Part shown: positions 1,833 to 29,482 of the stretch, one piece after another | Layout of the letters: each line of letters begins with the position of its first letter | How positions within the stretch are numbered: position 1 is the first letter of the stretch | NCBI GenBank assembly: GCA_002720485.1 | Contig: PBIQ01000005.1 | Span: 1-32,327, forward strand | Direction of reading: 5' to 3' | DNA: 32,327 nt | From: Acidimicrobiaceae bacterium | GTDB taxonomy: Bacteria > Actinomycetota > Acidimicrobiia > Acidimicrobiales > UBA8592 | Notes under the pieces: model-generated | Seen by the model: only the letters and a program-made list of their open reading frames with translations | Databases searched by the model: none | What the model was told of the DNA's origin: nothing | Made by a program: the position numbers and the translations under genes

Positions 1833-2300
1833 ATGGACGCCATGCAGCGATTCACCCAGGCGGCAGAACAGTCCGGCTTCTCAGTAGTAGCTGAACAATT
1901 TCCTGAAGGTACACGAACAGCTAAAGATGCCGCTGCCGCCGTCGGATGTGAACTCGCACAAATAGTCAAATCATTAGTCTTTATCCACGAAGAGAATCCA
2001 TACCTAGTTTTAGCTTCAGGGAAAAACCGGGTAGATGAATCTCTCGTAGCCAAAGTAATGGGTATCGACTCACTTTCCATAGCGACCCCAGAGCAAGTCC
2101 GGGAAGCAACAGGTTTCGCAATCGGAGGAACCCCGCCCTTTGGCCACCCAACGCCGATTCCGACCACTCTCGACAAAGATTTACTTGAATACGAAACAGT
2201 ATGGGCAGCAGCTGGAACACCAGACACATGTTTCCCAATCAGCCCACAAGACCTCGAGAAAATAACCTCTGCAGTCGTTACTGATATCGCTGCAGCATAA
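1833..2300 (+). CDS. YbaK/EbsC-type aminoacyl-tRNA deacylase
   Basis: A 155-residue stand-alone editing domain of the YbaK/ProX/EbsC family, which hydrolyses misacylated tRNA such as Cys-tRNA(Pro) or Ala-tRNA(Pro) in the cytoplasm. The conserved lysine sits at K46 ('QIVKSLVF'), exactly where the family's functional lysine is expected, and the family loop 'GFAIGGTPPFGH' lies near residues 103-114. Length matches single-domain members. It follows the amidohydrolase by five bases and precedes an SDR gene by about 33 bases, so it probably rides in the same transcript without a pathway link. Which aminoacyl-tRNA it edits cannot be told from the sequence. Confidence 0.88.
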   Translation: MDAMQRFTQAAEQSGFSVVAEQFPEGTRTAKDAAAAVGCELAQIVKSLVFIHEENPYLVLASGKNRVDESLVAKVMGIDSLSIATPEQVREATGFAIGGTPPFGHPTPIPTTLDKDLLEYETVWAAAGTPDTCFPISPQDLEKITSAVVTDIAAA

Positions 2301-2333
2301 AGTAAAAGTACGAAAGATAAGGCAGGTAACGAT

Positions 2334-3239
2334 ATGGGCATGTGTGAAGGGAAAGTAATCATCGTCACTGGGGCAGCCCGAGGCTTAGGGCGAGCCCATG
2401 CTCTAGCGTTAGCCCAACAAGGAGCTCGCGTCGTGGTAAACGACCTTGGGGTTGAACGTGATGGAACCGCAGCAGCTTCAGGGCCAGCCCAAGCAGTTGT
2501 CGATGAAATCGTAACTGCTGGCGGGGAGGCCATCGCCAACAATGCCGATGTTGCCGATTGGAACCAGGCAGAAGCGATGATACAACAAGCCATTGACCAG
2601 TGGGGAGTACTCGACGGCCTCATTTGCAACGCCGGTTTCCTCCGAGACAGGATGCTCGCAAGCATGAGCGAAGAAGAATGGGACACTGTTGTACGCGTAC
2701 ACCTAAAAGGACATTTCGCTCCTGCACGGCATGCCATAACGCATTGGAGGGAACGAGCCAAACAAGGCGAAAATATCCAAGCAAGAATAGTTAACACAAG
2801 CTCAGGTGCTGGACTCATGGGATCGATAGGTCAGGGAAACTACGCAGCTGCAAAAGCAGCGATAGCACAACTAACAATTCAACAAGCAAGCGAATGGGGG
2901 CGATACGGAGTGCTCGTGAACGCAATAGCCCCCGACGCGAGAACACGCATGACGGAAGGAATCTTCTACTCTTCTGACGACATTCAAGAGGGACAATTCG
3001 ATGAAAAAGCCCCTGAAAATGTCTCCCCCTTAGTCGTATGGCTCGCCAGCCCAGAATGCGACGTAACCGGCAGAACCTTTGAAGCAACAGGAGGGCAACT
3101 CAATGTCTGCGATGGATGGCAACATGGGCCGGTCCAATCAGTAGGAGATCGACAAATAAAGGTTGAAGAAATCAGCGACCTAGTTCATGCAAGCATAGAA
3201 AACGCTCCTCCGCCAGAAAGCGTATACGGAGCCCAATAG
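2334..3239 (+). CDS. SDR family dehydrogenase, MFE-2/Hsd4A-like
   Basis: A 301-residue short-chain dehydrogenase. The Rossmann motif 'VTGAARGLGRAHA' is at residues 11-23, followed by 'NDLGVERDG', 'CNAGFLRD' and the catalytic Ser-Tyr-Lys set in 'NTSSGAGLMGSIGQGNYAAAKAA'. The aspartate after the second strand favours NAD(H). This arrangement, with a long C-terminal tail after the active site, is characteristic of the 3-hydroxyacyl-CoA dehydrogenase part of multifunctional enzyme type 2 and of mycobacterial Hsd4A, which oxidises hydroxyacyl-CoA intermediates of steroid side-chain beta-oxidation. The acyl-CoA dehydrogenase pair and synthetase downstream support a beta-oxidation role; the precise substrate is inference. 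ATG 2334 follows an AGG-containing site; ATG 2340 is an alternative start. Confidence 0.87.
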   Translation: MGMCEGKVIIVTGAARGLGRAHALALAQQGARVVVNDLGVERDGTAAASGPAQAVVDEIVTAGGEAIANNADVADWNQAEAMIQQAIDQWGVLDGLICNAGFLRDRMLASMSEEEWDTVVRVHLKGHFAPARHAITHWRERAKQGENIQARIVNTSSGAGLMGSIGQGNYAAAKAAIAQLTIQQASEWGRYGVLVNAIAPDARTRMTEGIFYSSDDIQEGQFDEKAPENVSPLVVWLASPECDVTGRTFEATGGQLNVCDGWQHGPVQSVGDRQIKVEEISDLVHASIENAPPPESVYGAQ

Positions 3240-3333: not shown

Positions 3334-3710
<377 letters not shown>

Positions 3711-3838
3711 AGCTTCATCCGCCCGCTGGAACTGTAACTAGATTCCCTTTATCACGATTTTCTTGTAAAAAAATCCGCTCCTGTTTCTAAGAGGGGTATC
3801 GTAAAATCCAAGTAGATCTTTAATGCATGGAGCGGCAC

Positions 3839-5017
3839 GTGTTTCTCGAGGAAACCCCTGAACAACAATCCTTTCGAAAAGAAGTCCGAGAATATTTCGC
3901 TGGACTGATGACAGATGACATCCGCGAAGGTCTCCGCGGAGCTCATGAAACCTCCCCGATACGACGGCAGCTATTCCTCCAAATGGGGAAGGATGGAATG
4001 TTAGGTGTTGGCTGGCCAAAGGAATACGGCGGGCAGGGCCGCACACCAACCGACCAGTTCATCTTTTATGATGAATCTGTCCGCGCAAATGCACCGATGC
4101 CATTTGTGACCCTCAATACTGTCGGACCAACACTTATGGAGATGGGAAGCCAAGAACATAAGGATTTTTTCCTCCCGAAAATTCTCTCCGGAGAAATCAC
4201 ATTCGCAATCGGGTATAGCGAAGCAGGAGCAGGAACAGACCTTCTATCTCTGAGCACACGAGCTGAGCGTGACGGAGATGAATGGGTCATTAACGGCCAA
4301 AAAATGTGGACGAGCGGAGCCAATGAAGCCGACTATGTCTGGTTAGCGTGCCGGACAAACCCCGAAGCTAAGAAGCACAAGGGAATTTCAATCATTATTG
4401 TCCCAACAGACACGAAAGGCTTTAGTTATACCCCAATCGTGACAGTGGGGAATGCTACAACAACAGCAACCTACTATGACGAAGTCCGGGTTCCGTATAC
4501 GAACCTAGTCGGTGACCTAGATGGAGGGTGGGGGCTGATCGCAAGCCAATTGAACCACGAACGAGTTGGGCTAGCAGCCGTGAGCGTCCTCTCTTTCCGA
4601 CTATATGACGATGTGGTGAGGTGGGCTACGGCGACGGAAACCAGCAACGGACAATATGTCATAGACCTTCCATGGGTACAAATGGACCTTGCTAAATGCA
4701 GGGCAAAGCTAGATGCGCTGAACCTGATGAACTGGAGAATGACTACAGCTGTGGAAGCTGGCGAGTTGCAGCCATATCACGCGTCAACAGCGAAAGTGTA
4801 TGGGACTGAAAGCGTATCAGACGTATATCACTTACTTCTCGGAGTTGTCGGGGCAGCCGGTCACGTACGTGGCGGTTCACCGGGAGCGATTCTGCGTGGT
4901 GAGCTTGAAGCCGCAGGCCGGTCAGCGCAGATCAATACCTTCGGTGGAGGAGTAAATGAAATCCAACGAGAAATCATAGCCTGGATGGGACTAGGGATGA
5001 GCAGAGGGAAGCGCTGA
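3839..5017 (+). CDS. Acyl-CoA dehydrogenase, FadE26/ChsE4-like subunit
   Basis: A flavin acyl-CoA dehydrogenase that introduces an alpha-beta double bond into acyl-CoA. An open frame reaches ATG 3827, but GTG 3839 is preferred: GGAG at 3829-3832 sits six bases before it and the family N-terminus is 'MFLEETPEQQ'; this gives 392 residues. 'AIGYSEAGAGTDL' is the FAD-contact strand and 'INGQKMWTSGA' follows. The usual late catalytic Glu position reads 'FGGGVNEIQ' with Gly, while a Glu is found at 241 in 'LNHERVGLA', the isovaleryl-CoA-type site used in FadE26/ChsE4. The next gene starts four bases after the stop and encodes a second, complementary dehydrogenase, which matches the alpha2beta2 heterotetramers described for mycobacterial steroid side-chain catabolism. 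Substrate assignment is inference. Confidence 0.92.
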   Translation: MFLEETPEQQSFRKEVREYFAGLMTDDIREGLRGAHETSPIRRQLFLQMGKDGMLGVGWPKEYGGQGRTPTDQFIFYDESVRANAPMPFVTLNTVGPTLMEMGSQEHKDFFLPKILSGEITFAIGYSEAGAGTDLLSLSTRAERDGDEWVINGQKMWTSGANEADYVWLACRTNPEAKKHKGISIIIVPTDTKGFSYTPIVTVGNATTTATYYDEVRVPYTNLVGDLDGGWGLIASQLNHERVGLAAVSVLSFRLYDDVVRWATATETSNGQYVIDLPWVQMDLAKCRAKLDALNLMNWRMTTAVEAGELQPYHASTAKVYGTESVSDVYHLLLGVVGAAGHVRGGSPGAILRGELEAAGRSAQINTFGGGVNEIQREIIAWMGLGMSRGKR

Positions 5018-5021
5018 ACAC

Positions 5022-6155
5022 ATGAACTTCGACCTCACCGAAGAGCAGCAAGCACTACTGGAACTCAGCAACCAAATATTCGAAGGATCATCACCATCGG
5101 ACCGCGTAGAAGAAATCGAAACGACAGAAGATCGCTTCGACCGTGACCTATGGAAAGAACTCGCAAACGCTAACATTCTGGGAGTAGCGATACCCGAAGA
5201 GCACGGAGGCCTCGGGTTCGGAATTTTTGAACTCTGTCTTGTTCTGGAACAGCAAGGAAGAACAGTCGCTCCGGTCCCACTCCTCCCAACACTTGTCATG
5301 GGGGCGCTTCCCATCGTCGAATTCGGAACAGCGGAACAACAATCACGCCTCCTCCCAGCTATCGCATCAGGGAAATGTATTGTGACCGGAGGATTTCAAG
5401 AATGGGGAGCCAACAACCCACTCGACACCTCATTGGAAGCACAGTGCAAAGACGGACAATGGACACTAAACGGGGCTAAACCCGCCGTCCCAGCAGCCCA
5501 CATCGCCGATTATCTAGTCGTGCCAGCCAAAACAGACGCAGAAAACACTCACTTGTTTCTCATAGAAAGAGAAGCAACCGGTTTAACTGTCACGACAAAC
5601 ATCACCACGAACAGGGAACTTCAATCCCAAATCGATTGTGGTGCTGTGCCTGCAGAACCTTTAGGAGAACTCGGGCAAGGAAACCTCCCAATTCTCTGGA
5701 TACTCGAAAGAATCAATGTGGCGACCTCAGCTATAGCAGTTGGATGCTGTACCAAGGCAACTGAAATGGCGGCAGAATACACCAGCGAACGCGAACAATT
5801 CGGAAGGCCCCTTTCACACAACCAAGCGGTAACGCAGCGTGCAGCAGACTGCTACATAGGGACAGACGCGATGCGCCTTGTTCTTTGGCAGGCAGCCTGG
5901 CGTCTAGACGCAGGCTACCCAGCCTCCGAAGAAGTACGCATAGCGAAATGGTGGGCTTCAGAAGTTGGGCAGAAGGTAGTCCATGATGTTCAACACCTGC
6001 ACGGGGGAATGGGAGCAGATGTTGATTACCCCGTGCATAGATATTTTCTGTGGGTCAAACAATTAGAAAACTTTCTAGGTGGAGGATCCGCACAACTAGC
6101 TGAACTAGGGTCACTCATAACGACAAAGGCCAAAGCAAACACCTTTACGTATTGA
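5022..6155 (+). CDS. Acyl-CoA dehydrogenase, FadE27/ChsE5-like subunit
   Basis: A 377-residue acyl-CoA dehydrogenase family protein, more divergent than its upstream neighbour. N-terminal 'MNFDLTEEQQALLELSNQIFEG' and 'AIPEEHGGLGFG' are typical; the C-terminal domain has 'YTSEREQFGRPLSHNQAV' (flavin phosphate contact) and 'HLHGGMGADVDYPVHRYF', a motif seen in FadE27-type subunits. The middle beta domain is weakly conserved ('EWGANNPLDTSLEA' in place of the usual flavin-contact strand) and I see no obvious catalytic Glu at either standard position. This fits a partner subunit that supplies half of a shared active site with the protein encoded four bases upstream. Start ATG 5022 is the natural family N-terminus. 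Confidence 0.9.
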   Translation: MNFDLTEEQQALLELSNQIFEGSSPSDRVEEIETTEDRFDRDLWKELANANILGVAIPEEHGGLGFGIFELCLVLEQQGRTVAPVPLLPTLVMGALPIVEFGTAEQQSRLLPAIASGKCIVTGGFQEWGANNPLDTSLEAQCKDGQWTLNGAKPAVPAAHIADYLVVPAKTDAENTHLFLIEREATGLTVTTNITTNRELQSQIDCGAVPAEPLGELGQGNLPILWILERINVATSAIAVGCCTKATEMAAEYTSEREQFGRPLSHNQAVTQRAADCYIGTDAMRLVLWQAAWRLDAGYPASEEVRIAKWWASEVGQKVVHDVQHLHGGMGADVDYPVHRYFLWVKQLENFLGGGSAQLAELGSLITTKAKANTFTY

Positions 6156-8078: not shown

Positions 8079-9629
8079 ATGGGAATAGAAACAACTGACC
8101 TATGGAATCTAGTTCTTAAACGTGCCGAACTCACCCCCGAGTCAGAAATGCTCATCGATGAACAAGGGCGAAGGCTAACATTCCTCGAATATAAGATCGC
8201 CTCCCAACAAATGGCAGCTGGTTTCCACGAACTAGGGGTCAAAGAAGGCGATGTAGTAACTTGGGAACTCCCCACATGGATAGAAACCATTGTCTTAGCC
8301 GCCGCTCTAAGCCGTTTAGGTGCAATCCAAAATCCGATCATTGCCATCTACCGAGAACGAGAGGTCGGATTCTGTGTAAAGCAAGCGAATGCATCATTTC
8401 TGATAACACCCAAAGAATACCGAGGATTTAATTTCGAAGAGATGGGCGCAAACATCGCCGCATCATCTGATCAGTTGACAGCTCTCGCTCTTGAACCTAA
8501 TAACTTTCCAACTGCTGACCCAGCGACACTTCCCACCTATACCGAAGGTGAAGAAAACGTATTACGGTGGCTCTGCTACACGTCGGGAACCACTTCGGAC
8601 CCTAAAGGCGCAAAGCATACCGACGCGTCTATTGCAGCGATAGGGAAAAGCATGGGGGAGAGGTTAGACGTCCAATTTGGAGACCGGCCGGCACTTGTTT
8701 TCCCATTCCCGCATATCGGAGGTCTGACATGGCTGTTTACGGCATTACAGACCGGAGCATCATTGATATGCGATGCCGCATTTGACCCTGTAAAGACAAC
8801 AGAGCTGCTCTCCCGAGAAGATTGCACACATCCCGGCGCAGGGACGCCCTTCCACATGGCGTACCTCAACGCCCAACGAGCAAACCCTTCAAAAAAACTT
8901 TTCCCGAATGTAAAAAACTTCCCTGGAGGAGGTGCGCCTAAACCCGTCACCCTCCATGCTGAAGTGAAAGCGGAACTAGGAGGAAGCGGCATCGTCTCCG
9001 GATGGGGACTCACGGAAGCCCCAATACTCACAATGGGGGCAGATACAGACCCTGATGACAAACTTGCCACATCAGAAGGAAAGCCCATGCCCGGAGTAGA
9101 CCTTATCGCCGTTAAGGCAGATGGATCTGTCGCCCGATCAGGAGAAGAAGGAGAGTTGCGAGCAAAAGCACCCCAACTTATGCTCGGCTACCTTGATGCA
9201 TCCCTCGATAAAGAAGCCTTTGATGACAATGGGTATTTCCGGACCGGTGATCTAGGAATTATCGACCAAGACGGATACGTCGTGATTTCTGGACGGCTAA
9301 AAGACGTCATCATACGCCACGGCGAAAATATTTCAGCCAAAGAAGTAGAAGACCTTCTCTTCGACCACCCACAGATCGCAGATGTAGCAGTCATCGGCCT
9401 ACCAGATCCGGTTACCGGTGAACGAGCATGCGCTGTGGTATCCATTGTCGAAGGACAAGACCCTATCACCCTGACTGAGCTTCATGCGTACTTGGAAAAC
9501 GCCGGCCTCAGAAAAAACGCCATACCCGAGCAGTTAGGTACTGTCGAATCGATTCCTAGAAACCCCTCAGGAAAAATCACCAAAAACGTCTTACAAGAAC
9601 AGTTCACGAATGTACCTTTCGAACGCTAA
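8079..9629 (+). CDS. AMP-forming acyl-CoA synthetase (FadD17-like)
   Basis: A 516-residue ANL-superfamily enzyme that activates a carboxylic acid to its CoA thioester through an acyl-adenylate. The P-loop 'YTSGTTSDPKGAKH' is at residues 167-180, 'GWGLTEAP' is the A5-type motif, 'RTGDLGIIDQDGYVVISGRLKD' holds the ribose-binding Asp and the hinge, and 'PRNPSGKITK' places the catalytic lysine at K499. Length and motifs suit medium- or ring-bearing acyl substrates such as FadD3/FadD17 or cyclohexanecarboxylate ligases. It starts behind an AGGGGA site. With SDR and dehydrogenase genes nearby it likely supplies their CoA ester; the steroid-type substrate is inference. Its stop touches the stop of the convergent next gene with no spacer. 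Confidence 0.92.
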   Translation: MGIETTDLWNLVLKRAELTPESEMLIDEQGRRLTFLEYKIASQQMAAGFHELGVKEGDVVTWELPTWIETIVLAAALSRLGAIQNPIIAIYREREVGFCVKQANASFLITPKEYRGFNFEEMGANIAASSDQLTALALEPNNFPTADPATLPTYTEGEENVLRWLCYTSGTTSDPKGAKHTDASIAAIGKSMGERLDVQFGDRPALVFPFPHIGGLTWLFTALQTGASLICDAAFDPVKTTELLSREDCTHPGAGTPFHMAYLNAQRANPSKKLFPNVKNFPGGGAPKPVTLHAEVKAELGGSGIVSGWGLTEAPILTMGADTDPDDKLATSEGKPMPGVDLIAVKADGSVARSGEEGELRAKAPQLMLGYLDASLDKEAFDDNGYFRTGDLGIIDQDGYVVISGRLKDVIIRHGENISAKEVEDLLFDHPQIADVAVIGLPDPVTGERACAVVSIVEGQDPITLTELHAYLENAGLRKNAIPEQLGTVESIPRNPSGKITKNVLQEQFTNVPFER

Positions 9630-10643
9630 TTAAGAATTTTTGACGCCCCGAACCAAGTCAGTAAGCCAAGAAGGGTCGATGCCCTGAGGAATAGATAAGG
9701 CAACCCGATCAGCGGTTTGTCCGAACCGTTCGGCAAGCTGCGCACCAACTTCGTAAGGTGTCCCGACAACCGACAGAGCCTGCAAATGCTCTCGGGTAAA
9801 GAGATCTCCCAACTTTTCCCACTTTCCTTCTTTAGTCATCTGACGCAGCTCAGGTTGAAGCTCACCCCATCCGTGAGTTTCTAGGACAGGTCGATACGCT
9901 GGCGTTGACCCATAGAACCCAAGCATCCCACGGACGGTAGATTCAGCTCGCTCCTTGCTTTCATCCGTTCCATCATGAACCCCGACGATAGCTCCAACAA
10001 TAAGCGTGAAACTGGAAGCATCCTTCCCTTGAGAACTCAATCCGGTCATCATGTTTGGAATTGTGTGCTTTGTAAGATGCTCCTGTGAGGTAAAGGGGTG
10101 AACGAGAAGCCCATCAGCGCACGCTCCTGCTAGCTGTGTCATTTTCGGCCCTAAAGCTGCAAGCCAGACTGGTGGAGGGCCGCATTGGAGAGGGCTCGGA
10201 GTCAGCATCGGAGATGAAAGGGTGTGTCGAGTCCATTCTCCTTCAAAGCTAAGTGGCGTCTCATGCTGCCATGAATCAAAAATCGCCTTAGTCGCCTCTA
10301 TTATTTCACGCATTTGACGAAGCGGACTCTCCCAGACAGAACCATACCGGTTCTCGATATGGGGCCGTATCTGAGATCCCAGCCCCAACGCAAACCGTCC
10401 ACCAGTCAATCGTTGCAAATCCCAAGCTTGATAGGCGAGGTGCATCGGGCTTCGAGGAATCGCGACAGCAATGTTCGTATACAGCATGCCATTGGTGGAA
10501 GTTCCAGCCCTCACCAGCGGAAAGAAAACATCGCCTTTCCCTTCATAGGTAAATAAACCATCAGCGCCGGAAGCGTCCAAATCCTTTGCAGTTTCCGCAT
10601 TGTTTTCCAAATTTGTGTTCAATAACACATCAACGGCAATCAT
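9630..10643 (-). CDS. LLM-class F420-dependent oxidoreductase (TIGR03617-like)
   Basis: A luciferase-like monooxygenase fold protein (TIM barrel) of the F420-dependent group. N-terminal 'MIAVDVLLNTNLENNAETAKDL', the strand 'GRFALGLGSQIRPHIENRYG', 'PPPVWLAALGPKMTQLAG' and 'ADGLLVHPFTS' are characteristic of the TIGR03617 subgroup. The frame extends upstream to 10679, but ATG 10643 matches the family N-terminus and yields 337 residues. F420 use is family knowledge. A similar protein (Rv3520c) sits beside the ltp4-ltp3 genes in mycobacteria, and here the DUF35/thiolase operon lies 1.7 kb to the right, which supports a role in the same catabolic route. The reaction is unknown. Confidence 0.88.
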   Translation of the reverse strand: MIAVDVLLNTNLENNAETAKDLDASGADGLFTYEGKGDVFFPLVRAGTSTNGMLYTNIAVAIPRSPMHLAYQAWDLQRLTGGRFALGLGSQIRPHIENRYGSVWESPLRQMREIIEATKAIFDSWQHETPLSFEGEWTRHTLSSPMLTPSPLQCGPPPVWLAALGPKMTQLAGACADGLLVHPFTSQEHLTKHTIPNMMTGLSSQGKDASSFTLIVGAIVGVHDGTDESKERAESTVRGMLGFYGSTPAYRPVLETHGWGELQPELRQMTKEGKWEKLGDLFTREHLQALSVVGTPYEVGAQLAERFGQTADRVALSIPQGIDPSWLTDLVRGVKNS

Positions 10644-10684
10644 TGAGCAAACACTACCGCCGGACTGAGAAGAGAACACACTTG

Positions 10685-11149: not shown

Positions 11150-11253
11150 TAGTTCATAGAGTATAAATGCTGCTTTCATTAACGACGGTTTTTACATTTC
11201 GACTGCCAGAGCCTAACTTGTGCTTAGTAAGTCTGAACCAGATGGGAGCCCGC

Positions 11254-12336
11254 ATGCTTGCAGCAGTCCTTCGCAATACCGGCGATCAAGATCTAGATGT
11301 AACCGACACAATAGAAGTTAATGACCCAGGTCCCGATGACGTCGTAGTCAAGATTACCCATACTGGTGTATGCCATTCAGATGTCTCAGCTATGAACGGA
11401 ACAATCCCAACCGAATGCCCAGCAGTCCTAGGGCATGAGGGGGCTGGCATTATAGACGCTGTTGGCGACAACGTAACTGAAGTCGCAGTAGGTGACCACG
11501 TAATCGTAGTTTGGTCACCCCCATGTGGTGGATGCAGATTCTGCATCGATCACAAAAGCCCAAATTTATGCGTCACTGTCCAATTCGGTTCGATGATGCT
11601 GCCTCATTTCACCGAAGCAAATGTTCCCGTCCATGCAATGGCGGGCGCAGGAACATTCGCCGAAAAAACTCTTTTACCAAAACAAGCTGTCGTAAAAATC
11701 GACCCTGATATCCCGTTAGATATCGCATCATTAATTGGTTGCGGAGTCATGACAGGAGCAGGAGCTGCACTTAATACAGCAAAAATCACACCCGGATCTT
11801 CAGTGATCGTCTATGGCGCTGGCGGTGTAGGTGTTGCAGCTATCCAAGGCGCACGAATCGCAGGGGCTGCTGAAATTGTTGCAGTGGATCTTAACGACGC
11901 AAAACTTGATGATGCGAGAAGATTTGGTGCTACCCACGCAGTGAAACCTGAAGATGTTGACGGAGCTAAACTTGAAATAACTGGCGGAGATGGCTTTGAT
12001 TACGCCCTCGAATGTATCGGTAACCCTTTGACGATGCGAGCATCATTTGATGCGGTCCGGAGAGGCGGAACCGCATGTATCGTCGGCGTCGGAAGAATGG
12101 AAGAAATGGTTCAATTCAGCGCCTTCGAATTGTTCTTCAGCGAGAAAATCCTCGTTGGCTCCTACTATGGCGGAACTGACGTCAGAAGCGACTTCCACAA
12201 ACTGCTCAGATTATACAAACAGGGCAAACTAGACCTAGAAGGCATGATTACCCGACGGATAACGATAGATGAGATCAATCCAGCACTCGAAGCAGTACGA
12301 AACGGTGAAGTAATTCGACAAGTTATCGAGTTCTAA
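11254..12336 (+). CDS. Zinc-dependent alcohol dehydrogenase, class III-like
   Basis: A 360-residue medium-chain dehydrogenase. Catalytic zinc ligands are in 'GVCHSDVSAM' and 'GHEGAGII'; all four structural-zinc cysteines appear in 'PPCGGCRFCIDHKSPNLC'; the cofactor site is 'VYGAGGVGVAAIQGARIAG' followed by 'AVDLND', whose Asp indicates NAD(H). The frame is open from 11167, but ATG 11254 is chosen because GGGAG (11244-11248) lies five bases before it and the family starts 'MLAAVLRNTG'. Homologues include mycothiol- or glutathione-linked formaldehyde dehydrogenases and general aliphatic alcohol dehydrogenases. It sits 29 bases before the DUF35/thiolase operon, so it may oxidise an alcohol intermediate of that pathway; substrate unproven. 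Confidence 0.92.
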   Translation: MLAAVLRNTGDQDLDVTDTIEVNDPGPDDVVVKITHTGVCHSDVSAMNGTIPTECPAVLGHEGAGIIDAVGDNVTEVAVGDHVIVVWSPPCGGCRFCIDHKSPNLCVTVQFGSMMLPHFTEANVPVHAMAGAGTFAEKTLLPKQAVVKIDPDIPLDIASLIGCGVMTGAGAALNTAKITPGSSVIVYGAGGVGVAAIQGARIAGAAEIVAVDLNDAKLDDARRFGATHAVKPEDVDGAKLEITGGDGFDYALECIGNPLTMRASFDAVRRGGTACIVGVGRMEEMVQFSAFELFFSEKILVGSYYGGTDVRSDFHKLLRLYKQGKLDLEGMITRRITIDEINPALEAVRNGEVIRQVIEF

Positions 12337-12365: not shown

Positions 12366-12821
12366 GTGGAATCAACCGAACGTCTCAGCGCCCCACTCGT
12401 TCTCGAGTATCCCTTCACACGGACAACAGGCCCTGTGATCGGAGCGTTCCTAACTGGACTTCGTGAGAAAATCGTTCTCGGCATTAAACGACATGACGGA
12501 ACTGTCCTAGTCCCACCAACAGAATATGACCCGGAAACTTCCGAAACCCTAACGGAGATGGTCGAAGTAGCCCAACAAGGTGAAGTAACCACGTGGACAT
12601 GGGTCCAAGAACCACGCCCCCAGTCACCGTGGGACTCTCCACACGCACTAGCGATGATCAAGCTAGAAGGCGCCGACACTCCAATGTTACATGCCGTTCT
12701 CGCTGATGGCCCTGAAGAACTAGAAGTTGGAATGAAGGTGCGTATCAAATGGAGAGAAGTCACCGAGGGCCACATAAAAGACATTGAAGGCTTCATCCCT
12801 ATTGGAGAGAACAATGACTGA
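12366..12821 (+). CDS. DUF35-like OB-fold protein, first of tandem pair, no cysteines
   Basis: A 151-residue protein of the DUF35 (thiolase-associated OB-fold) type. The N-terminal helix 'LEYPFTRTTGPVIGAFLTGLREKIVLGIKRHDGTVLVPP' is the standard entry, where family members normally show a rubredoxin-like zinc ribbon (CxxC...CxxC). This protein has no cysteine at all; 'TVLVPPTEYDPET' occupies that place. The OB strands follow ('TWTWVQE', 'ALAMIKLEGADTPMLHAVL', 'GMKVRIKWRE'). GTG 12366 is the start, behind AAGGAA. Its end overlaps the next gene by eight bases. DUF35 proteins bind thiolase-like enzymes and can be needed for their activity, as with ChsH2-Ltp2; here the two thiolase-like genes lie directly downstream. 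Confidence 0.85.
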   Translation: MESTERLSAPLVLEYPFTRTTGPVIGAFLTGLREKIVLGIKRHDGTVLVPPTEYDPETSETLTEMVEVAQQGEVTTWTWVQEPRPQSPWDSPHALAMIKLEGADTPMLHAVLADGPEELEVGMKVRIKWREVTEGHIKDIEGFIPIGENND

Positions 12822-13368
12822 CGTCAGCGTACCGTCATCACTTGATGGGGTAGAGCCAGTTCAGTCTGTACGAACTCCGATCCGCTTGGAGTATACGTTC
12901 ACTCCCGGCGTGGCAGCCCAAACATACTTGCGGGAATTCGCTAACAAAAAAATTCTCGGCGTTGTTTCACCCGTCGATGGCGCAGTCCTTGTCCCTCCAA
13001 GAGGGGCCGATTCCAGACATGGTGCGCTTTGTGACGAGTTTATTGAAATGCCGCACACAGGCCACGTCGGATCGTTTTGTGTGACAAACGTTCCCATTCC
13101 AGGAAGAGATCTCGACCTCCCATATATTTCAGCGTGTATATTTCTTGATGGCGCAGACATCGGATTCCTAAACCTTGTTGCTGAATGCCCACCCGAGGAA
13201 TGCCGGATCGGGATGAGAGTCGAAGCAGTTTGGAAACCGGATGAAGAGATAGGAATGACAGCCGAAAATATTCTGTATTGGCGACCAACTGGTGAGCCAG
13301 ATATACCTTTTGGGGCCGCAGGAGTTCGAGGTTGGCATGTGCGGGAAGAAGGTGAAGCCAATGCGTAA
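12814..13368 (+). CDS. DUF35-like OB-fold protein, second of tandem pair
   Basis: A 184-residue second DUF35-type protein. 'RLEYTFTPGVAAQTYLREFANKKILGVVSPVDGAVLVPPRG' is the N-terminal helix and strand, again without the zinc-ribbon cysteines; OB strands include 'GSFCVTNVPIPG', 'YISACIFLDGADIGFLNLVAE' and 'GMRVEAVWKPDE'. The C-terminal tail ('ENILYWRPTGEPDIPFG') is longer than in the first copy. ATG 12814 is preferred over the upstream ATG 12784 because GGAGAG at 12804-12809 fits it; it overlaps the previous stop by eight bases, and its own stop overlaps the thiolase-like start by eight bases. The two neighbours may be the split equivalent of a single two-domain protein such as mycobacterial Rv3521 (about 300 residues, from memory). 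Confidence 0.85.
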   Translation: MTDVSVPSSLDGVEPVQSVRTPIRLEYTFTPGVAAQTYLREFANKKILGVVSPVDGAVLVPPRGADSRHGALCDEFIEMPHTGHVGSFCVTNVPIPGRDLDLPYISACIFLDGADIGFLNLVAECPPEECRIGMRVEAVWKPDEEIGMTAENILYWRPTGEPDIPFGAAGVRGWHVREEGEANA

Positions 13369-14377
13369 AGTCGCTGTTGTCGCAGCCGCCAGCCGCCAAG
13401 AAGAAAAAATGTTAGACAATGAAGTCGAGATGATGGTCCCACTCATTACTGACGTACGAACGCAAACAGGACTTGACCAAACCGATATCTGCTTTACCTG
13501 CTCAGGAAGTTCAGATTTTCTTGCCGGCCAGGCGTTCTCCTTTGTGATGACCCTCGACGCAGTTGGCCCTGTCCCCCCAATTGCTGAAAGCCACGTAGAA
13601 ATGGACGGGGCATGGGCGCTTTATGAAACATGGGTGAAATTCCAGATGGGCGTTATCGATACAGCCCTTGTGTACTCCTATGGCAAACCCTCTCCCGGAT
13701 CGCTGCAAGACGTTCTCTCTACCCAACTTGACCCATACTATGTAGCTCCCCTCTGGCCAGACGCACACTCAGTAGCAGCGTTACAAGCACGACTATTGCT
13801 TGAACAAGGGGCCATCACGCCAGACGAACTGGCAGATTGTGCCGTTAGAACAGGAACAGCCGAGAATAGAGAAGACTACTTTTCACAGCCCCTTCTATCA
13901 GATCCTCTTAGAGAAGCAGACTGTCCGACATACGCCGATGGGGGCGTAGCGCTCATCCTAGCCTCCGAAGAAAAAGCAGATGAACTCTGCGACCGGCCAG
14001 CATGGATCACTGGAATCGATCATCGTATCGATGCGCACCACTTCGGGGCAAGGGACTTCACCGCTGTTCCTTCAGTTCGACTTGCCGCCCAGAACGCAGG
14101 CGTACACGATGGCCCTATAGACTCCACTGAGTTACATGCGGCATATACCACCCATGACCTCCTTCTGAGGAAAGAAATGGGACTAGGTATACCCGACACC
14201 CCACAACGGTCATACCCCATCCAAGCTGACACGCTCATGGCTTCTGGACTTCTACGAATAGCCGAAGCGGCAAGATCTATTTGGGATGGCAGCGCAAACA
14301 GGGTCCTCGCCCACGCCACAGCCGGACCAATACTGCAACAGAATCTAGTTTGTGTTCTCGAAGGAAAAGAGAACTAA
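13361..14377 (+). CDS. Thiolase-like protein lacking catalytic cysteine (Ltp4-like)
   Basis: A 338-residue thiolase-fold protein. 'KVAVVAAASRQEEKMLDNEVEMMVPLI' is the N-terminal strand-helix; the loop where thiolases carry the nucleophilic Cys ('NxCxSG') reads 'SHVEMDGAWALYETW', with Glu or Met at that place. The C-terminal 'CxGGG' region reads 'LAHATAGPILQQN', also without Cys. 'SYGKPSPGS' and 'YADGGVALILAS' are family-typical. ATG 13361 is chosen because GAAGGTGAAG precedes it and the family N-terminus begins there; an open frame continues upstream to 13292. Ordinary thiolase chemistry is therefore unlikely. By size and order it resembles mycobacterial Ltp4, paired with the next gene. Retro-aldol cleavage or a non-catalytic partner role are possibilities. 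Confidence 0.87.
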   Translation: MRKVAVVAAASRQEEKMLDNEVEMMVPLITDVRTQTGLDQTDICFTCSGSSDFLAGQAFSFVMTLDAVGPVPPIAESHVEMDGAWALYETWVKFQMGVIDTALVYSYGKPSPGSLQDVLSTQLDPYYVAPLWPDAHSVAALQARLLLEQGAITPDELADCAVRTGTAENREDYFSQPLLSDPLREADCPTYADGGVALILASEEKADELCDRPAWITGIDHRIDAHHFGARDFTAVPSVRLAAQNAGVHDGPIDSTELHAAYTTHDLLLRKEMGLGIPDTPQRSYPIQADTLMASGLLRIAEAARSIWDGSANRVLAHATAGPILQQNLVCVLEGKEN

Positions 14378-15549
14378 TGGGCGCCGGAGGAGAAACTACA
14401 GCGGTTATCGGAATTGGGATGACAAATTTCTCAGCAACCCGAGGAGATGTCTCAATGCCTGGGCTCGTCCGAGAAGCAGCACTCAGAGCTTTAGAAGACG
14501 CTGGTATGGGATGGGACGACATCGATGCAGTAGTCATGGGGAAAGCACCGGACTTCTTCGAAGGTGTAATGATGCCAGAAATCTTTTTGGCAGAAGCCTT
14601 AGGATGCGTCGGGAAACCAATATTGCGCGTTCACACAGCCGGATCAGTCGGAGGATCAACAGCTCTCGTCGCCGCATCATTGGTTCATTCCGGAGTACAC
14701 AAAAAAGTGCTGACCGTAGCATGGGAAAAGCAGAGTGAATCAAATGCAATGTGGGCGCTAAGCCTCAAACAGCCCTTCCAAGTATCGATCAATGCCGGAG
14801 CAGGAGGATACTTCTCGCCCATTATTCGCCAATATATGGAAGAATCCAATGCCCCAGAGCTCATCGGCTGCATGGTCGCATTCAAAGATCGCCAACATGC
14901 CCTTTTGAACCCCTATGCCCACTTACACCAAACAGATTTAACGTTCGACCAAGTAGTGGAATCACCAATGCTTTGGGAGCCAATACGCTATTCCGAAACC
15001 TGCCCATCGTCCGACGGTGCAGCTGCGATGGTAATCGCACACGAGTCCATCGCAGACAAGTCACCAAACCCTGCATGGATACATGCAGGAGCAATGAGAA
15101 GCGAAGCGAACAACTTCCCCGGTCGAGATGAAGTCAACCCGCAGGCAAGCCGGGAATGCGCCGCAGACTTATGGGCCCAGGCAGGGATAACCAACCCGCG
15201 AGAAGAGATCGACGCGGCAGAACTGTACGTTCCTTTCAGCTGGTACGAACCAATGTGGTTAGAGAGTCTAGGATTCTGCGACAGGGGAGACGGTTGGAAA
15301 ATGGTCGAATCCGGTGCAACCCATATTGATGGCGGTGACCTCCCAGTCAATTGCTCCGGAGGCGTATTGTCTTCAAACCCAATCGGAGCATCAGGAATGA
15401 TTCGATTCGCAGAAGCAGCACTACAAGTACGAGGGATGGCTGGCGACCACCAAGTTAAGGACGCCAGAAAAGCACTCGGTCACGCATATGGTGGAGGAGC
15501 CCAATATTTCGCCATGTGGGTCGTAGGAGCCGATAAACCCACCAACTAG
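14377..15549 (+). CDS. Thiolase-like protein with C-terminal YGG motif (Ltp3-like)
   Basis: A 390-residue thiolase-superfamily protein sharing one base (TAATG) with the preceding gene. N-terminal 'TTAVIGIGMTNFSATRGDV' is typical of the SCP-x/lipid-transfer thiolases. The nucleophile loop is 'RVHTAGSVGGSTALVAA', with Gly or Ser instead of Cys. Near the end 'GHAYGGGAQYFAMWVV' has Tyr-Gly-Gly where thiolases have Cys-x-Gly-Gly; a YGG tyrosine is a feature of the Ltp2-type steroid side-chain aldolases. 'ELYVPFSWYEPMWLESLGFC' and 'GGVLSSNPIGASGM' match the family's late motifs. I infer a CoA-thioester retro-aldolase acting with the upstream thiolase-like and DUF35 proteins. The longer upstream frame from 14281 is discarded. 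Confidence 0.88.
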   Translation: MGAGGETTAVIGIGMTNFSATRGDVSMPGLVREAALRALEDAGMGWDDIDAVVMGKAPDFFEGVMMPEIFLAEALGCVGKPILRVHTAGSVGGSTALVAASLVHSGVHKKVLTVAWEKQSESNAMWALSLKQPFQVSINAGAGGYFSPIIRQYMEESNAPELIGCMVAFKDRQHALLNPYAHLHQTDLTFDQVVESPMLWEPIRYSETCPSSDGAAAMVIAHESIADKSPNPAWIHAGAMRSEANNFPGRDEVNPQASRECAADLWAQAGITNPREEIDAAELYVPFSWYEPMWLESLGFCDRGDGWKMVESGATHIDGGDLPVNCSGGVLSSNPIGASGMIRFAEAALQVRGMAGDHQVKDARKALGHAYGGGAQYFAMWVVGADKPTN

Positions 15550-15567: not shown

Positions 15568-16257
15568 GTGGCTAACGCACTGCATCGATTAAAGTTTCCC
15601 GTTACAACAGTAGCGGTTAGTTTCCTTATGGTTGTCGGGGCCCTTACTGCCTGTTCCGGAAGTACAAACGGCGACATAGACGCTTACTGCGCACTTGTAG
15701 AGGACAACTTCGAAATAGGGTTAGCCAACAGTGGAATAGAGCTAGAGGACTTAGAAGCATTACTCGAAGTTTCACCTGACGAAATAGCAAACATTGTAGA
15801 GAAACTAAGAAACACTCTCGCAGATATTGCAGAAATCGATGAATTGGATCAGTTATTCGCTGCGACATTCGATCCTGATGCGCTAGTAGCGCAACAAAAA
15901 TTTGAAATTTTCAATGCAGATGAATGTGGGATTAGCGTTGAAGCTATCGCTGCCGCCTTAAAGGCGAATCAGGACCTCATTCAAGGTGAGCTGGTTCAAT
16001 TCCTTGAAGACAACAATATTTCATCGTTATGGACCGGAGACGTGAATATTTCGCTCGTCTTTGACGGCCTCACTATCCAAGGAGCTCAAGTGACGTTCCT
16101 CACACCTTCGGAGCAAGGGCAAGCTCTGAGCGTTTGCCATGCAATAAGCCTCTGGATGTACGCCCTAAAAGAGGCAGAAGGATCGATACTCATATTTGAA
16201 GACTCACGAGAAATTGTCCGCAGAAATGCTTCAGATACTAAATGTGTCGAAGTTTAA
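15568..16257 (+). CDS. Secreted lipoprotein of unknown function
   Basis: A 229-residue protein starting at GTG 15568. Residues 1-28 form a lipoprotein signal peptide (basic 'LHRLKFP', hydrophobic core, lipobox 'LTAC' with C29), so it is probably anchored to the outer face of the cytoplasmic membrane. The mature part is acidic with helical stretches ('LEDLEALLEVSPDEIANIVEKL') and a few cysteines ('YCALVED', 'DECGIS', 'SVCHAIS', 'TKCVEV') that might form disulfides. I recognise no family. An ATG at 15566 is out of frame. It sits 18 bases after the thiolase operon, but base composition differs from the genes to its left and co-function is not implied. Confidence 0.75.
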   Translation: MANALHRLKFPVTTVAVSFLMVVGALTACSGSTNGDIDAYCALVEDNFEIGLANSGIELEDLEALLEVSPDEIANIVEKLRNTLADIAEIDELDQLFAATFDPDALVAQQKFEIFNADECGISVEAIAAALKANQDLIQGELVQFLEDNNISSLWTGDVNISLVFDGLTIQGAQVTFLTPSEQGQALSVCHAISLWMYALKEAEGSILIFEDSREIVRRNASDTKCVEV

Positions 16258-21847: not shown

Positions 21848-22768
21848 TCAAACCAGCCGCTGCTGAAAAGCTTTCGCTATCTCAACGGCGACTATCGCAT
21901 TATTCTCAAGAAGTGCTAGGTTAGCCGGCACACTTTTACCGTGACTTTCTCTTGCTACAGTTTCAAGAATCAATGGAGTGACTTCTGGGCCGCTGATTCC
22001 AGTCTCCTTTGCTTCAGCTAATGCACGCTCAATGAGCGCCCAGCTTGTCTTTGGATCAAGTTCGTGCTCTTCGGGGATGGGGACACCAACCAGAATTCCC
22101 TGAGGAAGTCCTAGAGTAGAGGCATTTCTAAAAATATTGACAATAGTCGCTGGGTCTTTGACCGAAGGAATTGGCAATTTACTACTTCGAAGGTAGAAAG
22201 CTGGAAAGTCAGAGGTATTCCAGCCAAGGACAGGAACTCCTAAGCTCTCTAACATTTCTAATGTCCGGGGTAGATCCAAAAAGGCTTTAGCTCCAGCACA
22301 TACGCACACGACTTTGTGTCGCGCAAGAGCGTACAAGTCAGCGCTGAGGTCCCCAGATTCTGAATATCCATGATGCACTCCTCCTATTCCTCCTGTGCAG
22401 AAGACTTTTATACCTGCTGCTGCAGCTATTGCAAGAGAAGCAGAGACTGTCGTGGCTCCAACGCTCTTTCCTTCCGCCATAGAAAGAACTAAGTCACGTG
22501 AAGCCACTTTCGTCTCGCAGCTAAGAATTCGATCCCATTCGTTGCTGTCAATTCCTAAGCGAGCTTCTCCATCTATGACAGCCGTTACTGCTGCTACAGC
22601 TCCATTTTCATGAATTGTGGAAATACAACGTTGAAGAGCATCGCGATTCGAAGGCTCTGGTAGTCCAAGGGTGCTAAATACTGTTGACTCCAAAGCAACG
22701 ACGGGCGATCCGTTAGAGATAGCGTCTGAGACTTCCCCTGAAATTCGAATTTTCCCTACGTGGGTCAT
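21848..22768 (-). CDS. psuG: Pseudouridine-5'-phosphate glycosidase
   Basis: A 306-residue PsuG (IndA-type) enzyme that reversibly cleaves the C-glycosidic bond of pseudouridine-5'-phosphate to uracil and ribose-5-phosphate, a manganese-dependent lyase. Family segments are 'PVVALESTVFSTLGLPEP', 'KVASRDLVLSMAEGKSVGATTVSASL' (Schiff-base Lys region), 'VFCTGGIGGVHHG', 'VVCVCAGAKAFLDLPRTLEMLE' and 'GKSVPANLALLENNAIVAVEIA'. No clear ribosome-binding site precedes ATG 22768; translation may depend on coupling from the HAD gene 45 bases upstream. A separate PsuK-type kinase is not adjacent; the adenosine-kinase-like protein (17768-18760) is the only PfkB candidate in the window. Confidence 0.94.
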   Translation of the reverse strand: MTHVGKIRISGEVSDAISNGSPVVALESTVFSTLGLPEPSNRDALQRCISTIHENGAVAAVTAVIDGEARLGIDSNEWDRILSCETKVASRDLVLSMAEGKSVGATTVSASLAIAAAAGIKVFCTGGIGGVHHGYSESGDLSADLYALARHKVVCVCAGAKAFLDLPRTLEMLESLGVPVLGWNTSDFPAFYLRSSKLPIPSVKDPATIVNIFRNASTLGLPQGILVGVPIPEEHELDPKTSWALIERALAEAKETGISGPEVTPLILETVARESHGKSVPANLALLENNAIVAVEIAKAFQQRLV

Positions 22769-22813
22769 ATCAGCAGTGTAGAGGAGGATTTACGACGGTG
22801 ATTAAGTCAGATC

Positions 22814-23515
22814 TCAAGAATCGAAGCTAGCCAGAAACTCAGGGAGCCCTCGAATGGATTCTAAGATTGTGTAGGTATCTCCGCTAGTTCCTGCATGTTC
22901 AGTTTCATACTGCCAAGTTGTTTCATGGGGTATATGCACGGCATGACTTCCGATCTCAATAACAGGAAGAATATCGCTCCGGATACTATTGCCTACCATC
23001 AGGAACTGCTCAGGCGCTACGCCGATGCTCGCAAGGATTTTCCTGTAGGCTTCGTTATCTTTTTCCTGCAGAATCTCTATATCTGTTACGAAAGTAGATA
23101 GGCCCGAATCATTGAATTTCTGCTGTTGATGGAAGGGGTCGCCTTTCGTAATTACATATATGGTGAAGCGACTTTGCAACTCGGACATTACGTCTAGTAC
23201 TCCGGAAAGCAACTTTACAGGATGATGAAGTAGTTCTTTCCCCCACTGAACGATTTCTATCATGTCGCCGCTGCTTATGTTGCCTTGAGTTAGGTGATGG
23301 GCTGACTCAACCATTGAGATTGTAAAAGATTTCACACCATAGCCGAGTTTAGGCAGGTTCCTTTTTTCAGTTTCGTATAATTCTTTGCCGATATCGGCTT
23401 CAACTCCGTAGGAATTGATCAGATCAGAGAACTTTTTCTCCACTTCTCCGAAAAACACCTCACTTTCCCACAACGTATCGTCAGCATCGAACCCGATAGT
23501 ACTAATTGTGCTCAT
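22814..23515 (-). CDS. HAD-family hydrolase, probable nucleotide phosphatase
   Basis: A 233-residue HAD subfamily I hydrolase. Motif I is 'GFDADDTLWESE' (nucleophile D10, acid D12), a large helical cap follows (residues 20-100), motif II is 'YVITKGDP', motif III Lys lies around 'EKDNEAY', and motif IV is 'FLMVGNSIRSDILP'. This layout resembles YjjG-type nucleotidases and pseudouridine-5'-phosphatase-like proteins. Its start overlaps the adenosine deaminase stop by one base (TAATG on the minus strand), and psuG follows by 45 bases, so it is part of the nucleoside operon. Dephosphorylation of a nucleoside or pseudouridine monophosphate is inference. Confidence 0.83.
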   Translation of the reverse strand: MSTISTIGFDADDTLWESEVFFGEVEKKFSDLINSYGVEADIGKELYETEKRNLPKLGYGVKSFTISMVESAHHLTQGNISSGDMIEIVQWGKELLHHPVKLLSGVLDVMSELQSRFTIYVITKGDPFHQQQKFNDSGLSTFVTDIEILQEKDNEAYRKILASIGVAPEQFLMVGNSIRSDILPVIEIGSHAVHIPHETTWQYETEHAGTSGDTYTILESIRGLPEFLASFDS

Positions 23516-24591
23516 TATGTATTTCCATGAACTCGGCTAGGAGTAAGGTACCAATCCGATAGAACCGAATTTAAATCCTCTTTGAGGTCCGTAGGTATAA
23601 ATGAGCTAGATAAGGCATTTCTCATTAGCGTATAGACCGTAGATATGTCCCATCCGAATGTTTCTGTACATATTTGAAGTTCTTTCGTAAGGCAGGTGTT
23701 TGACATAAGGCGATTATCCGTATTGATGGTAGCGCAGAGCCCTAATTCTAGAAAACGGCTTATGGGGTGTTCAGCGAATGAATCCACTGCACCTATGTGA
23801 AGATTTGAAGTGGGGCACAATTCCAATGCAATTTGGTCATCGAGAAAAAGTGAAACAAGCTTACTTTCCCCTAAGCCTGCGTCCTCGTTGCTGGGTATCT
23901 CATATTGCAATCCAAGACCATGTCCGATTCTAGACGCCCCGCATTCTTCAACTGCTTCCTGAATATAGATGGCACCTCCTACCTCTCCGGCATGGATCGT
24001 CACAGGGAAATCTGATTCCATTGCTAAATGAAAGGCTTCCAAATGGTCAGACGGCGGATATCCGATTTCTGGCCCGGCAATGTCAAAGCCGACAACCCCT
24101 TTCGATCGGAATTGCAAAGCAAATTCCATCATTTCCTTGCTTCGGCTGTTAGAACGGATGGCGCAAATCAAGGCATTTACGATGATTCCTCGTCCCTCCG
24201 AACCCGACTGGAAACCCGCTAAGACACTCTCAATAACTTGAGGAACTGAAAGTCTATTAGCAAGATGCAATTCAGGAGCAAATCGAACTTCCGCATAAAT
24301 AATCCCATCATCAGCAAGATCCTCAGCACATTCAGCAGCAACTCTGTATATGGCATCCTGATTCTGCATTACCGAGAGAGTATGCGCAAAAGCCTCCAAG
24401 TAAAGCTCAAGGTCCTTCCTGTCTGCAGTCGCAGTCATCCAATCGCCAAGCTCGTTTGCGTTGTATGTTGGGAGACTTTTAATCTCTGAGTCTTTTGCTA
24501 GTTGAACAATCGTTGACGGTCGGAGCCCTCCATCTAGATGGTCATGCAGAAGAATTTTAGGAGCAGTTTGAATAATTTCGGGAGACAGCAT
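23515..24591 (-). CDS. add: Adenosine deaminase
   Basis: A 358-residue zinc enzyme that deaminates adenosine (and deoxyadenosine) to inosine. Zinc ligands H16 and H18 are in 'LLHDHLDGGL', then 'TIHAGEVGG' (zinc His and catalytic Glu), 'RIGHGLGL' (catalytic His), 'ELCPTSNLHIG' and 'ATINTDNRLMS' (zinc/catalytic Asp). ATG 24591 yields the family N-terminus 'MLSPEIIQTAPKILLHDHL'; the frame is open to 24684 but that would overlap the dioxygenase gene. There is no good ribosome-binding site before 24591 and the upstream stop is about ten bases away, so translational coupling is likely. Family members with slightly altered specificity exist (adenine, aminodeoxyfutalosine), but gene context favours adenosine. 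Confidence 0.92.
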   Translation of the reverse strand: MLSPEIIQTAPKILLHDHLDGGLRPSTIVQLAKDSEIKSLPTYNANELGDWMTATADRKDLELYLEAFAHTLSVMQNQDAIYRVAAECAEDLADDGIIYAEVRFAPELHLANRLSVPQVIESVLAGFQSGSEGRGIIVNALICAIRSNSRSKEMMEFALQFRSKGVVGFDIAGPEIGYPPSDHLEAFHLAMESDFPVTIHAGEVGGAIYIQEAVEECGASRIGHGLGLQYEIPSNEDAGLGESKLVSLFLDDQIALELCPTSNLHIGAVDSFAEHPISRFLELGLCATINTDNRLMSNTCLTKELQICTETFGWDISTVYTLMRNALSSSFIPTDLKEDLNSVLSDWYLTPSRVHGNT

Positions 24592-24601
24592 GCGTGTTTT
24601 A

Positions 24602-25453
24602 CTAATCGGCCACTTGTATCTCGAATCCACGAAGCGGCATATCATCAGATCGCTGAAGCCAGTTATCCTCGGGGTATTTGGCACTCTTTTCTATCAGGTG
24701 GAGCGTAAATGCATGCCGCGAATGAGAAGACGTGTTCGGTCCAGACCAGTGGGGTAGAAGCCCATGGAGAACAACTAAGGTCCCCTTCTTCGCTTCGAGT
24801 GGAACTCTCTTCTCCGTCGAAAAAGGATCAGAGTTAAGAGTAACCATTTCCGTACCTCCTGAGGAGTTCCTTCGGAAACGCTGACGAGGCTGTTCTTTGT
24901 GGAGTCCAGGGAGGCACCACAAACACCCATTGTCGATAGTGGCATCTTCTAAGGCAACCCAGAAGCCCTTTACTGACGGAGGATCTGTCCATAGAAAGGG
25001 ATGGTCGGTGTGCCACACAACTTCTCCACCTATCTGCGGGGGCTTAAAGATATACATCGATTGAAGTAACAAGGGGCTTGTGAAACCCACGTCAGCAGCG
25101 AGTTGTGCAAGTTTTGGTTGCCTCACAAAATTAGAAAATACGGGGTCCAAGTCGTGCAAGGCATGTCCTACCTTGTTTAGTGACAGTTCAAGTGGCTGGG
25201 ATGGATCAATAGCTTCAGAGTCTTCGTAGAAGAACCTGATTTTGTCTCCGGATGTCAGAAAGTAGTCTTCTTGAGTGTGCGTGTTGTCTGTCGTTGAAAA
25301 AACAGTTTCCTTCTCTCCAGGTTGATACTCGTTCAATAGTTGTGTCATGCGCGTTTGAATGGTGTCGCATTCATCTTCCGTAAAGAATTCTGGCAGGACC
25401 AGAACACCTTGATCGTCGAAGTCTTGAATTTGAGTATCGGTGAGCTGAGGCAT
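24602..25453 (-). CDS. PhyH/PHYHD1-like Fe(II)/2-oxoglutarate dioxygenase
   Basis: A 283-residue member of the phytanoyl-CoA dioxygenase family. The facial triad is visible: H148 and D150 in 'VVWHTDHPFLW', H235 in 'LLPHWSGPN', with R246 in 'SSHSRHAFTLH' as the 2-oxoglutarate anchor. 'GFWVALEDATIDNGCLWCLPGLH' is a hallmark close to animal PHYHD1 and its bacterial relatives. The enzyme would hydroxylate a small substrate using O2 and 2-oxoglutarate. It sits three bases after the permease gene and about ten bases before adenosine deaminase, inside a nucleoside transport and salvage operon. A modified nucleoside or nucleotide as substrate is a contextual guess; no substrate can be read from sequence. 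Confidence 0.9.
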   Translation of the reverse strand: MPQLTDTQIQDFDDQGVLVLPEFFTEDECDTIQTRMTQLLNEYQPGEKETVFSTTDNTHTQEDYFLTSGDKIRFFYEDSEAIDPSQPLELSLNKVGHALHDLDPVFSNFVRQPKLAQLAADVGFTSPLLLQSMYIFKPPQIGGEVVWHTDHPFLWTDPPSVKGFWVALEDATIDNGCLWCLPGLHKEQPRQRFRRNSSGGTEMVTLNSDPFSTEKRVPLEAKKGTLVVLHGLLPHWSGPNTSSHSRHAFTLHLIEKSAKYPEDNWLQRSDDMPLRGFEIQVAD

Positions 25454-25456
25454 GAG

Positions 25457-29366: not shown

Positions 29367-29385
29367 GGCTTCTCCTTGTATATGC

Positions 29386-29455
29386 AACGAGTGAGGCTGG
29401 TATCCCACACCCTATCCAGTTTTACAACCGTGGTGAAGGACCAGCCTCACTCGTT
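29386..29455. repeat. 16-bp perfect inverted repeat between BMP lipoprotein and ATPase genes
   Basis: The arms are 29386-29401 (AACGAGTGAGGCTGGT) and 29440-29455 (its exact complement), with a 38-base loop. In the minus-strand transcript the stem lies about 28 bases after the lipoprotein stop and ends about nine bases before the ATPase ribosome-binding site. No U-run follows in that direction. It could stabilise the 3' end of the lipoprotein mRNA or attenuate read-through. On the + strand a run of six T follows, but no + gene reads into it. Confidence 0.75.
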
Positions 29456-29482
29456 ATGAGTTTTTTCTATTTCCTAACTCAA

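Follow-up and report, generated by a model that had tools for sequence, protein, structure and literature searches.

According to one review, Ltp3 and Ltp4 together make up a heteromeric aldol-lyase whose target in C24-branched sterols is the C24-C25 bond (PMC6678751), and the heteromer is also presented as essential for C24-branched sterols elsewhere (PMC8708139; PMC6273163; PMC4761994). A structure of Ltp3-Ltp4 was not found. All review statements on the pair go back to Wilbrink et al. 2012. Papers citing that work describe the need for Ltp3 and Ltp4 in the degradation of C24-branched sterol side chains in Rhodococcus only. Two related aldolases are better characterized at the level of their active sites. 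In TcLtp2, Tyr294 of the YDHF motif acts as the base and Tyr344 as the acid, while CtSal uses Tyr302 and Cys304 of its YDCY motif and carries a Gly at the position of the nucleophilic Cys (PMC12329534). Ltp2 and Sal are both dimers with two flanking DUF35 domains (PMC12329534).

The window, by which we refer to the whole stretch of 32,327 nucleotides that was analyzed from an Acidimicrobiaceae bacterium, encodes two adjacent thiolase-like proteins, named A and B here, which are preceded by two DUF35/OB-fold genes, named D1 and D2. Features of these genes and of their upstream neighbors are as follows:

2334..3239, forward strand: SDR of the Hsd4A type (PRK07791, 428 bits, cut-off 373)
3827..6155, forward strand: two acyl-CoA dehydrogenase genes of the FadE26-FadE27 (ChsE4-ChsE5) type
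8079..9629, forward strand: acyl-CoA ligase (PF00501)
11254..12336, forward strand: Zn-dependent alcohol dehydrogenase (PF00107/PF08240) directly upstream of D1, with an ORF that opens at 11167
12366..12821, forward strand: D1, a DUF35/OB-fold partner (PF01796, 46.9 bits) without zinc-ribbon Cys
12814..13368, forward strand: D2, a second DUF35/OB-fold partner (PF01796, 42.8 bits)
13361..14377, forward strand: A, an Ltp4-type thiolase-like subunit of 338 amino acids (ATG at 13361, TAA at 14375-14377)
14377..15549, forward strand: B, an Ltp3-type thiolase-like subunit of 390 amino acids (start ATG at 14377)
14632..14655, forward strand: nucleophile loop HTAGSVGG of B, where Gly89 replaces Cys (unchanged in 99 of 99 orthologs)
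15226..15237, forward strand: YVPF of B at the HDCF/YDHF position, with Tyr284 as the proposed catalytic base

An earlier sequence-only reading of this DNA had described a TAATG junction between the two genes, and both ORFs were found as described, with the stop codon of A (14375-14377) overlapping the start codon of B (ATG 14377). The motifs that it named were likewise read in the ORFs: ESHVEMDG (HVEMDG at ~13592-13609) and LAHATAGP (ATAGP at ~14315-14329) in A, and RVHTAGSVGGST (HTAGSVGG at ~14632-14655) and HAYGGG (AYGGG at ~15484-15498) in B. Both the reading of the sequence and the alignment of orthologs agreed with its claim that the nucleophilic Cys is missing from the nucleophile loops of A and B. 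Its choice of CxGGG as the second catalytic motif was wrong for this branch of thiolases, where the HDCF position counts instead: alignment revealed HDCF, YDHF, or YDCY as the second catalytic position of SCP2-type thiolases and Ltp2/Sal. At this position, A has HAAY (~14135-14146) and B has YVPF (~15226-15237), and hence the second catalytic Cys is gone from both proteins as well.

Searches of family models assigned both proteins to thiolase-like families. B matched the NCBIfam model PRK08313 (659 bits, cut-off 514) as well as PF22691, and A matched PRK07937 (437 bits, cut-off 419); B scored 147 bits against PRK07855, the Ltp2 family model, which is below the cut-off of 469. No Pfam match was found for A, and the possibility raised by this absence, that A is unrelated to thiolases, was ruled out by PRK07937 and by the structure model. 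The AlphaFold model of A (mean pLDDT 86) displayed a thiolase fold, with Foldseek matches to 6et9, 7pxp, 6ok1, and 9myr. The model of B (mean pLDDT 85) matched 6ok1 and 9myr with VIA Z of 44.2 and 42.3, respectively, and the SCP2-type or DUF35-bound thiolases (6hsj, BbsAB 7pxp, and 6esq) with VIA Z of 43 to 50. Solved thiolases matched the models of A and B across nearly their entire length, which identifies the fold of the thiolase superfamily in both. The name of PRK07937 in NCBIfam, in line with the "lipid-transfer protein" of annotations, might suggest that A and B are non-catalytic lipid carriers, but this is highly improbable, as the name derives from SCP2 homology and Ltp2, under the same name, is a proven aldolase (6ok1; PMC12329534).

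The loss of catalytic Cys was observed throughout the orthologs. Among B orthologs, all 99 were Cys-free at both catalytic sites, and the HTAGSVGGST loop, Y-V-P-F-S-W, and AYG were invariant. Similarly, a Cys was absent from the nucleophile site in 100 of 100 A orthologs, a count biased by the use of ESHVEMD as one of the two patterns that recruited the loci; E-S-H-V and the next Asp were invariant in this set, and the third HDCF position had no Cys. The 19 loci found by an unbiased search with family models demonstrated the same Cys loss, in agreement with the larger A set. The combination typical of SCP2-type thiolases, a nucleophilic Cys together with the HDCF Cys, was found neither in the window nor in the orthologs. 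The loss of Cys in A and B is real and conserved rather than a chance event. An authentic thiolase or acyltransferase could in principle employ another cysteine, and B does contain an invariant Cys209 as well as the common Cys216 and Cys261. However, Cys209 lies in CPSSDGA, a motif also present in Ltp2 and in SCP2 thiolases whose catalytic Cys is at a different place, and no B ortholog has a Cys at either catalytic position, so that we give this explanation hardly any credence.

A genome that was labeled mycobacterial from its gene content (G038) included a counterpart of the locus. Its gene order started with a FadD19-type ligase, EchA19, a P450-like gene, an unknown gene, and an Rv3520c-type F420 oxidoreductase, followed by a cassette of a tandem DUF35, PRK07937, and PRK08313 and then by a KshA-like gene. 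Beyond the latter were an Ltp2-like gene and what are presumably HsaF/G/E-, KstD-, ChsH2-, and CYP125-like genes, labeled by their order and the start of their sequences. The same order has been published around Rv3515c to Rv3546, where Rv3522 is ltp4 and Rv3523 is ltp3 (PMC6429209). Because the PRK07937-PRK08313 pair of this genome stands in the published order Rv3520c-Rv3521-ltp4-ltp3-kshA, A and B were assigned to Ltp4 and Ltp3, and it appears fairly probable that they are the corresponding subunits of a DUF35-bound heteromeric sterol side-chain aldol-lyase. The matches to the Ltp4 and Ltp3 families, along with the reviews, lend support to the earlier suggestion of a CoA-thioester lyase, which would resemble Ltp2 instead of a thiolase and would probably be a heteromer with DUF35 partners (PMC6678751; PMC8708139).

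The conserved unit consists of four genes, D1-D2-A-B, in which the DUF35 pair precedes A. In the window, D2 shares a few bases with each of its neighbors, D1 and A. Of the 99 loci, 71 had the two DUF35s fused and 26 had them as separate genes, and two were partial. In the PDB, D1 had a single match, ChsH2(DUF35) from the complex with Ltp2 (E 0.0013). The zinc-ribbon Cys of D1 were absent in all aligned orthologs, while the four of D2 (CPxC...CPxCG) were kept in Streptomyces and others and lost in the window lineage and mycobacteria. Because the Ltp2 and Sal dimers carry two DUF35 domains, A and B may by analogy form a thiolase-fold dimer with D1 and D2 at its flanks. Directly 3' of B, a putative lipoprotein without a Pfam match is encoded at 15568-16257, and lipoprotein-like ORFs were also found downstream of B in the related loci L041 and L159.

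The sequence-only reading had further proposed one catalytic and one structural subunit, which remains plausible, with B favored as the candidate catalytic one. Tyr284 of B aligns with Tyr294 of Ltp2 and was a Tyr in 99 of 99 B orthologs. In contrast, the base position of A was occupied by His, not Tyr, in 86 of 100 orthologs. Conservation in the same loci was 60-81% for B versus 44-60% for A (92% versus 76% in the nearest relative). In addition, the NPSGG loop of A (residues ~279-290, among the least confident parts of its model) was replaced by QRSYP variants in the genus of the window. Since B keeps the base Tyr, whereas A has a His, is less conserved, and has lost NPSGG, B was taken as the catalytic subunit and A as its partner. 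It is also conceivable that A is catalytic, or that both are, in which case B or neither would be purely structural. Strongly conserved polar residues in A (E76, S77, H78, D82, E257, Q326, Q327, and N328) point in this direction, but the three features of A just listed argue against it and make it quite unlikely.

The favored role of B would involve only part of the known catalytic residues. The Tyr344 of Ltp2, which was located by counting 50 residues from Tyr294, lies in GEAY and aligns with SNP in B, and neither His296 nor Tyr344 of Ltp2 is retained (YVPF and SNP in B). As judged from these alignments, B retains the base Tyr284 and the Gly loop but neither of the known acids. Tyr371 of B, in AYGGG, was considered as a second catalytic residue and found to be a weak candidate, with Trp or Phe in its place in the sister pairs described below and no equivalent in Ltp2. 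The earlier remark that the YGG form recalls Ltp2 had to be abandoned, as Ltp2 (6ok1 and orthologs) has VTAGTG there. In the mechanism that we propose, B would bind the C24-branched side chain in the form of a beta-hydroxyacyl-CoA, and Tyr284 would take the hydroxyl proton. The C24-C25 bond would be cleaved without a covalent Cys intermediate, after which the acyl-CoA enolate would be protonated and released and the remainder would depart as a carbonyl product. A would complete the dimer and the pocket while being non-catalytic itself.

The neighbors of the cassette are of the steroid type. The best PDB matches of the two acyl-CoA dehydrogenases were the subunits of 6wy8 (467 and 306 bits), which we take to be a steroid acyl-CoA dehydrogenase, and those of 4x28 (429 and 202 bits), which we take to be FadE26-FadE27 (ChsE4-ChsE5) of M. 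tuberculosis; the next matches had 135 and 132 bits. Their best matches in G038 were adjoining genes in the FadE26-FadE27 position beside mce4-like genes, and the SDR of the window was 46% identical to a G038 SDR in the Hsd4A position, which has mce4 on one side and fadE26-fadE27 on the other. Additionally, the genome of the window encoded a CYP125 relative (best PDB matches CYP125, 494 bits) and an Ltp2 relative (576 bits to 6ok1, 62% identical to the G038 copy). The latter is a stand-alone gene at G000:C17:23820-24980 (L124, L134), on a contig without a DUF35 match. A Zn-dependent alcohol dehydrogenase preceded D1 in most of the Acidimicrobiia loci with sufficient flank and in none of the Streptomyces loci, and the one in the window is probably co-transcribed with the cassette.

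Given this gene content, the cassette likely acts on a sterol-like substrate. The same lyase chemistry might be directed at a non-sterol substrate, such as another branched isoprenoid acyl-CoA, in which case only mycobacteria and rhodococci would use the pair on sterols. In favor of this reading, KshA, which is needed for the usual ring opening, had no close match in the genome or in 12 congeners, and the ligase of the window is not of the FadD19 type (PRK07798 was absent from its best NCBIfam matches). The cassette is also common in Streptomyces, where the upstream alcohol dehydrogenase of the Acidimicrobiia is missing, and it extends to single bins from the Myxococcales and the Deltaproteobacteria. 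These points are countered by the FadE26-FadE27-type pair and the Hsd4A-type SDR in the window, the CYP125 and Ltp2 relatives in the genome, the FadD19-type ligase at the Streptomyces cassette, and KstD-like genes, which were found at ~40% in congeners only and not in the 69%-complete genome itself. A non-sterol substrate is therefore considered unlikely, though it deserves more weight than the other alternatives. The CYP125, Ltp2, FadE26-FadE27, and Hsd4A relatives similarly weaken the conclusion, drawn from the missing KshA, that the organism is not a sterol degrader.

Other genes were noted in the window. An F420-dependent LLM oxidoreductase (TIGR03617) is encoded at 9630-10679 on the reverse strand, between the ligase and the alcohol dehydrogenase. 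LLM proteins of TIGR03617 were also found near the cassette in other Acidimicrobiia, and mycobacteria have a different LLM (TIGR03559) in a similar place. The ORF at 3372-3710, considered as a ferredoxin like FdxD, turned out to be a P-II protein. A separate block on the reverse strand (21848-32300) included an ABC transporter with a PnrA-like (Bmp) binding protein, an adenosine deaminase, a PhyH dioxygenase, a HAD hydrolase, and an indigoidine-synthase-A-like gene of the pseudouridine glycosidase type.

The distribution of the cassette included many Acidimicrobiia bins, Streptomyces, a Microtetraspora, and single bins of Myxococcales and Deltaproteobacteria, and plasmids of Tsukamurella and Streptomyces carried it as well. 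Within the genus of the window, it was found in nine of 13 genomes, one of which was counted just under the cut-off. The Streptomyces and Tsukamurella cassettes adjoin an acyl-CoA synthetase, which is of the FadD19 type in Streptomyces (PRK07798, 743 bits, cut-off 543). Beyond the cassette, other paired thiolase-like families of the phylum were represented by ten sister pairs (L026-L035), which score under the Ltp3 and Ltp4 cut-offs. In all ten, neither partner has a Cys in the nucleophile loop or at the third HDCF position. They are adjacent gene pairs (e.g., L029:895-2037 and 2037-3230), most with one DUF35 nearby. The sister pairs may represent a larger class of heteromeric lyases. More tentatively, and with somewhat less than even confidence, Ltp3-Ltp4 could belong, as a single branch, to a widespread class of Cys-free lyases of the thiolase fold that are obligate heteromers, in which an A-type subunit, marked by a V-E-x-D loop, stands beside a B-type one, marked by a T(A/G)G(S/T) loop. 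In the Ltp3-Ltp4 branch, the DUF35s would be paired too, such that the symmetric DUF35-Ltp2-Ltp2-DUF35 arrangement would have turned into an enzyme of four different subunits or domains.

Mutants are the main source of knowledge on the enzyme that removes the branched side chains of plant and algal sterols, and the pair in the window is a new example of this known, poorly understood type, with a predicted biochemistry. The conserved unit is one of four genes or domains, not two, and the sequences point to B and its Tyr284 as the putative catalytic site. The presence of the cassette in uncultured Acidimicrobiia, marine ones included, makes them candidate sterol side-chain degraders. The comparison also suggests that the label "thiolase" is incorrect for many proteins annotated in such pairs.

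Among known systems, the SCP2-type or DUF35-bound thiolases (6hsj, BbsAB 7pxp, and 6esq) share the fold and in some cases a DUF35, but unlike A and B they possess the catalytic Cys. The Sal-Shy(DUF35) bile acid aldolase (9myr) shares the thiolase fold, the Gly in place of Cys, the Tyr of YDCY, and a DUF35 partner; however, it is a homodimer with its DUF35 fused to a hydratase, and the essential Cys of YDCY is missing in A (HAAY) and B (YVPF). The Ltp2-ChsH2(DUF35) aldolase (6ok1) resembles B in its thiolase fold, Cys-free loop, DUF35 partner, and base Tyr, but it is a homodimer with one type of DUF35. It is ~29% identical to B and has YDHF and Tyr344 where B has YVPF and SNP, with only Tyr294 of these features retained in B. 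Ltp3-Ltp4 of Rhodococcus rhodochrous and M. tuberculosis (Rv3523-Rv3522, with Rv3521) differs in the fusion of its DUF35s in one gene in mycobacteria, as opposed to the separate D1 and D2. The window also differs in its ligase, which is not of the FadD19 type, in a genus without a close KshA, and in an A that is further decayed. Nevertheless, the two have in common the DUF35-A-B order, both family models, the steroid-type neighbors, and the loss of catalytic Cys, as seen in the mycobacterial orthologs.
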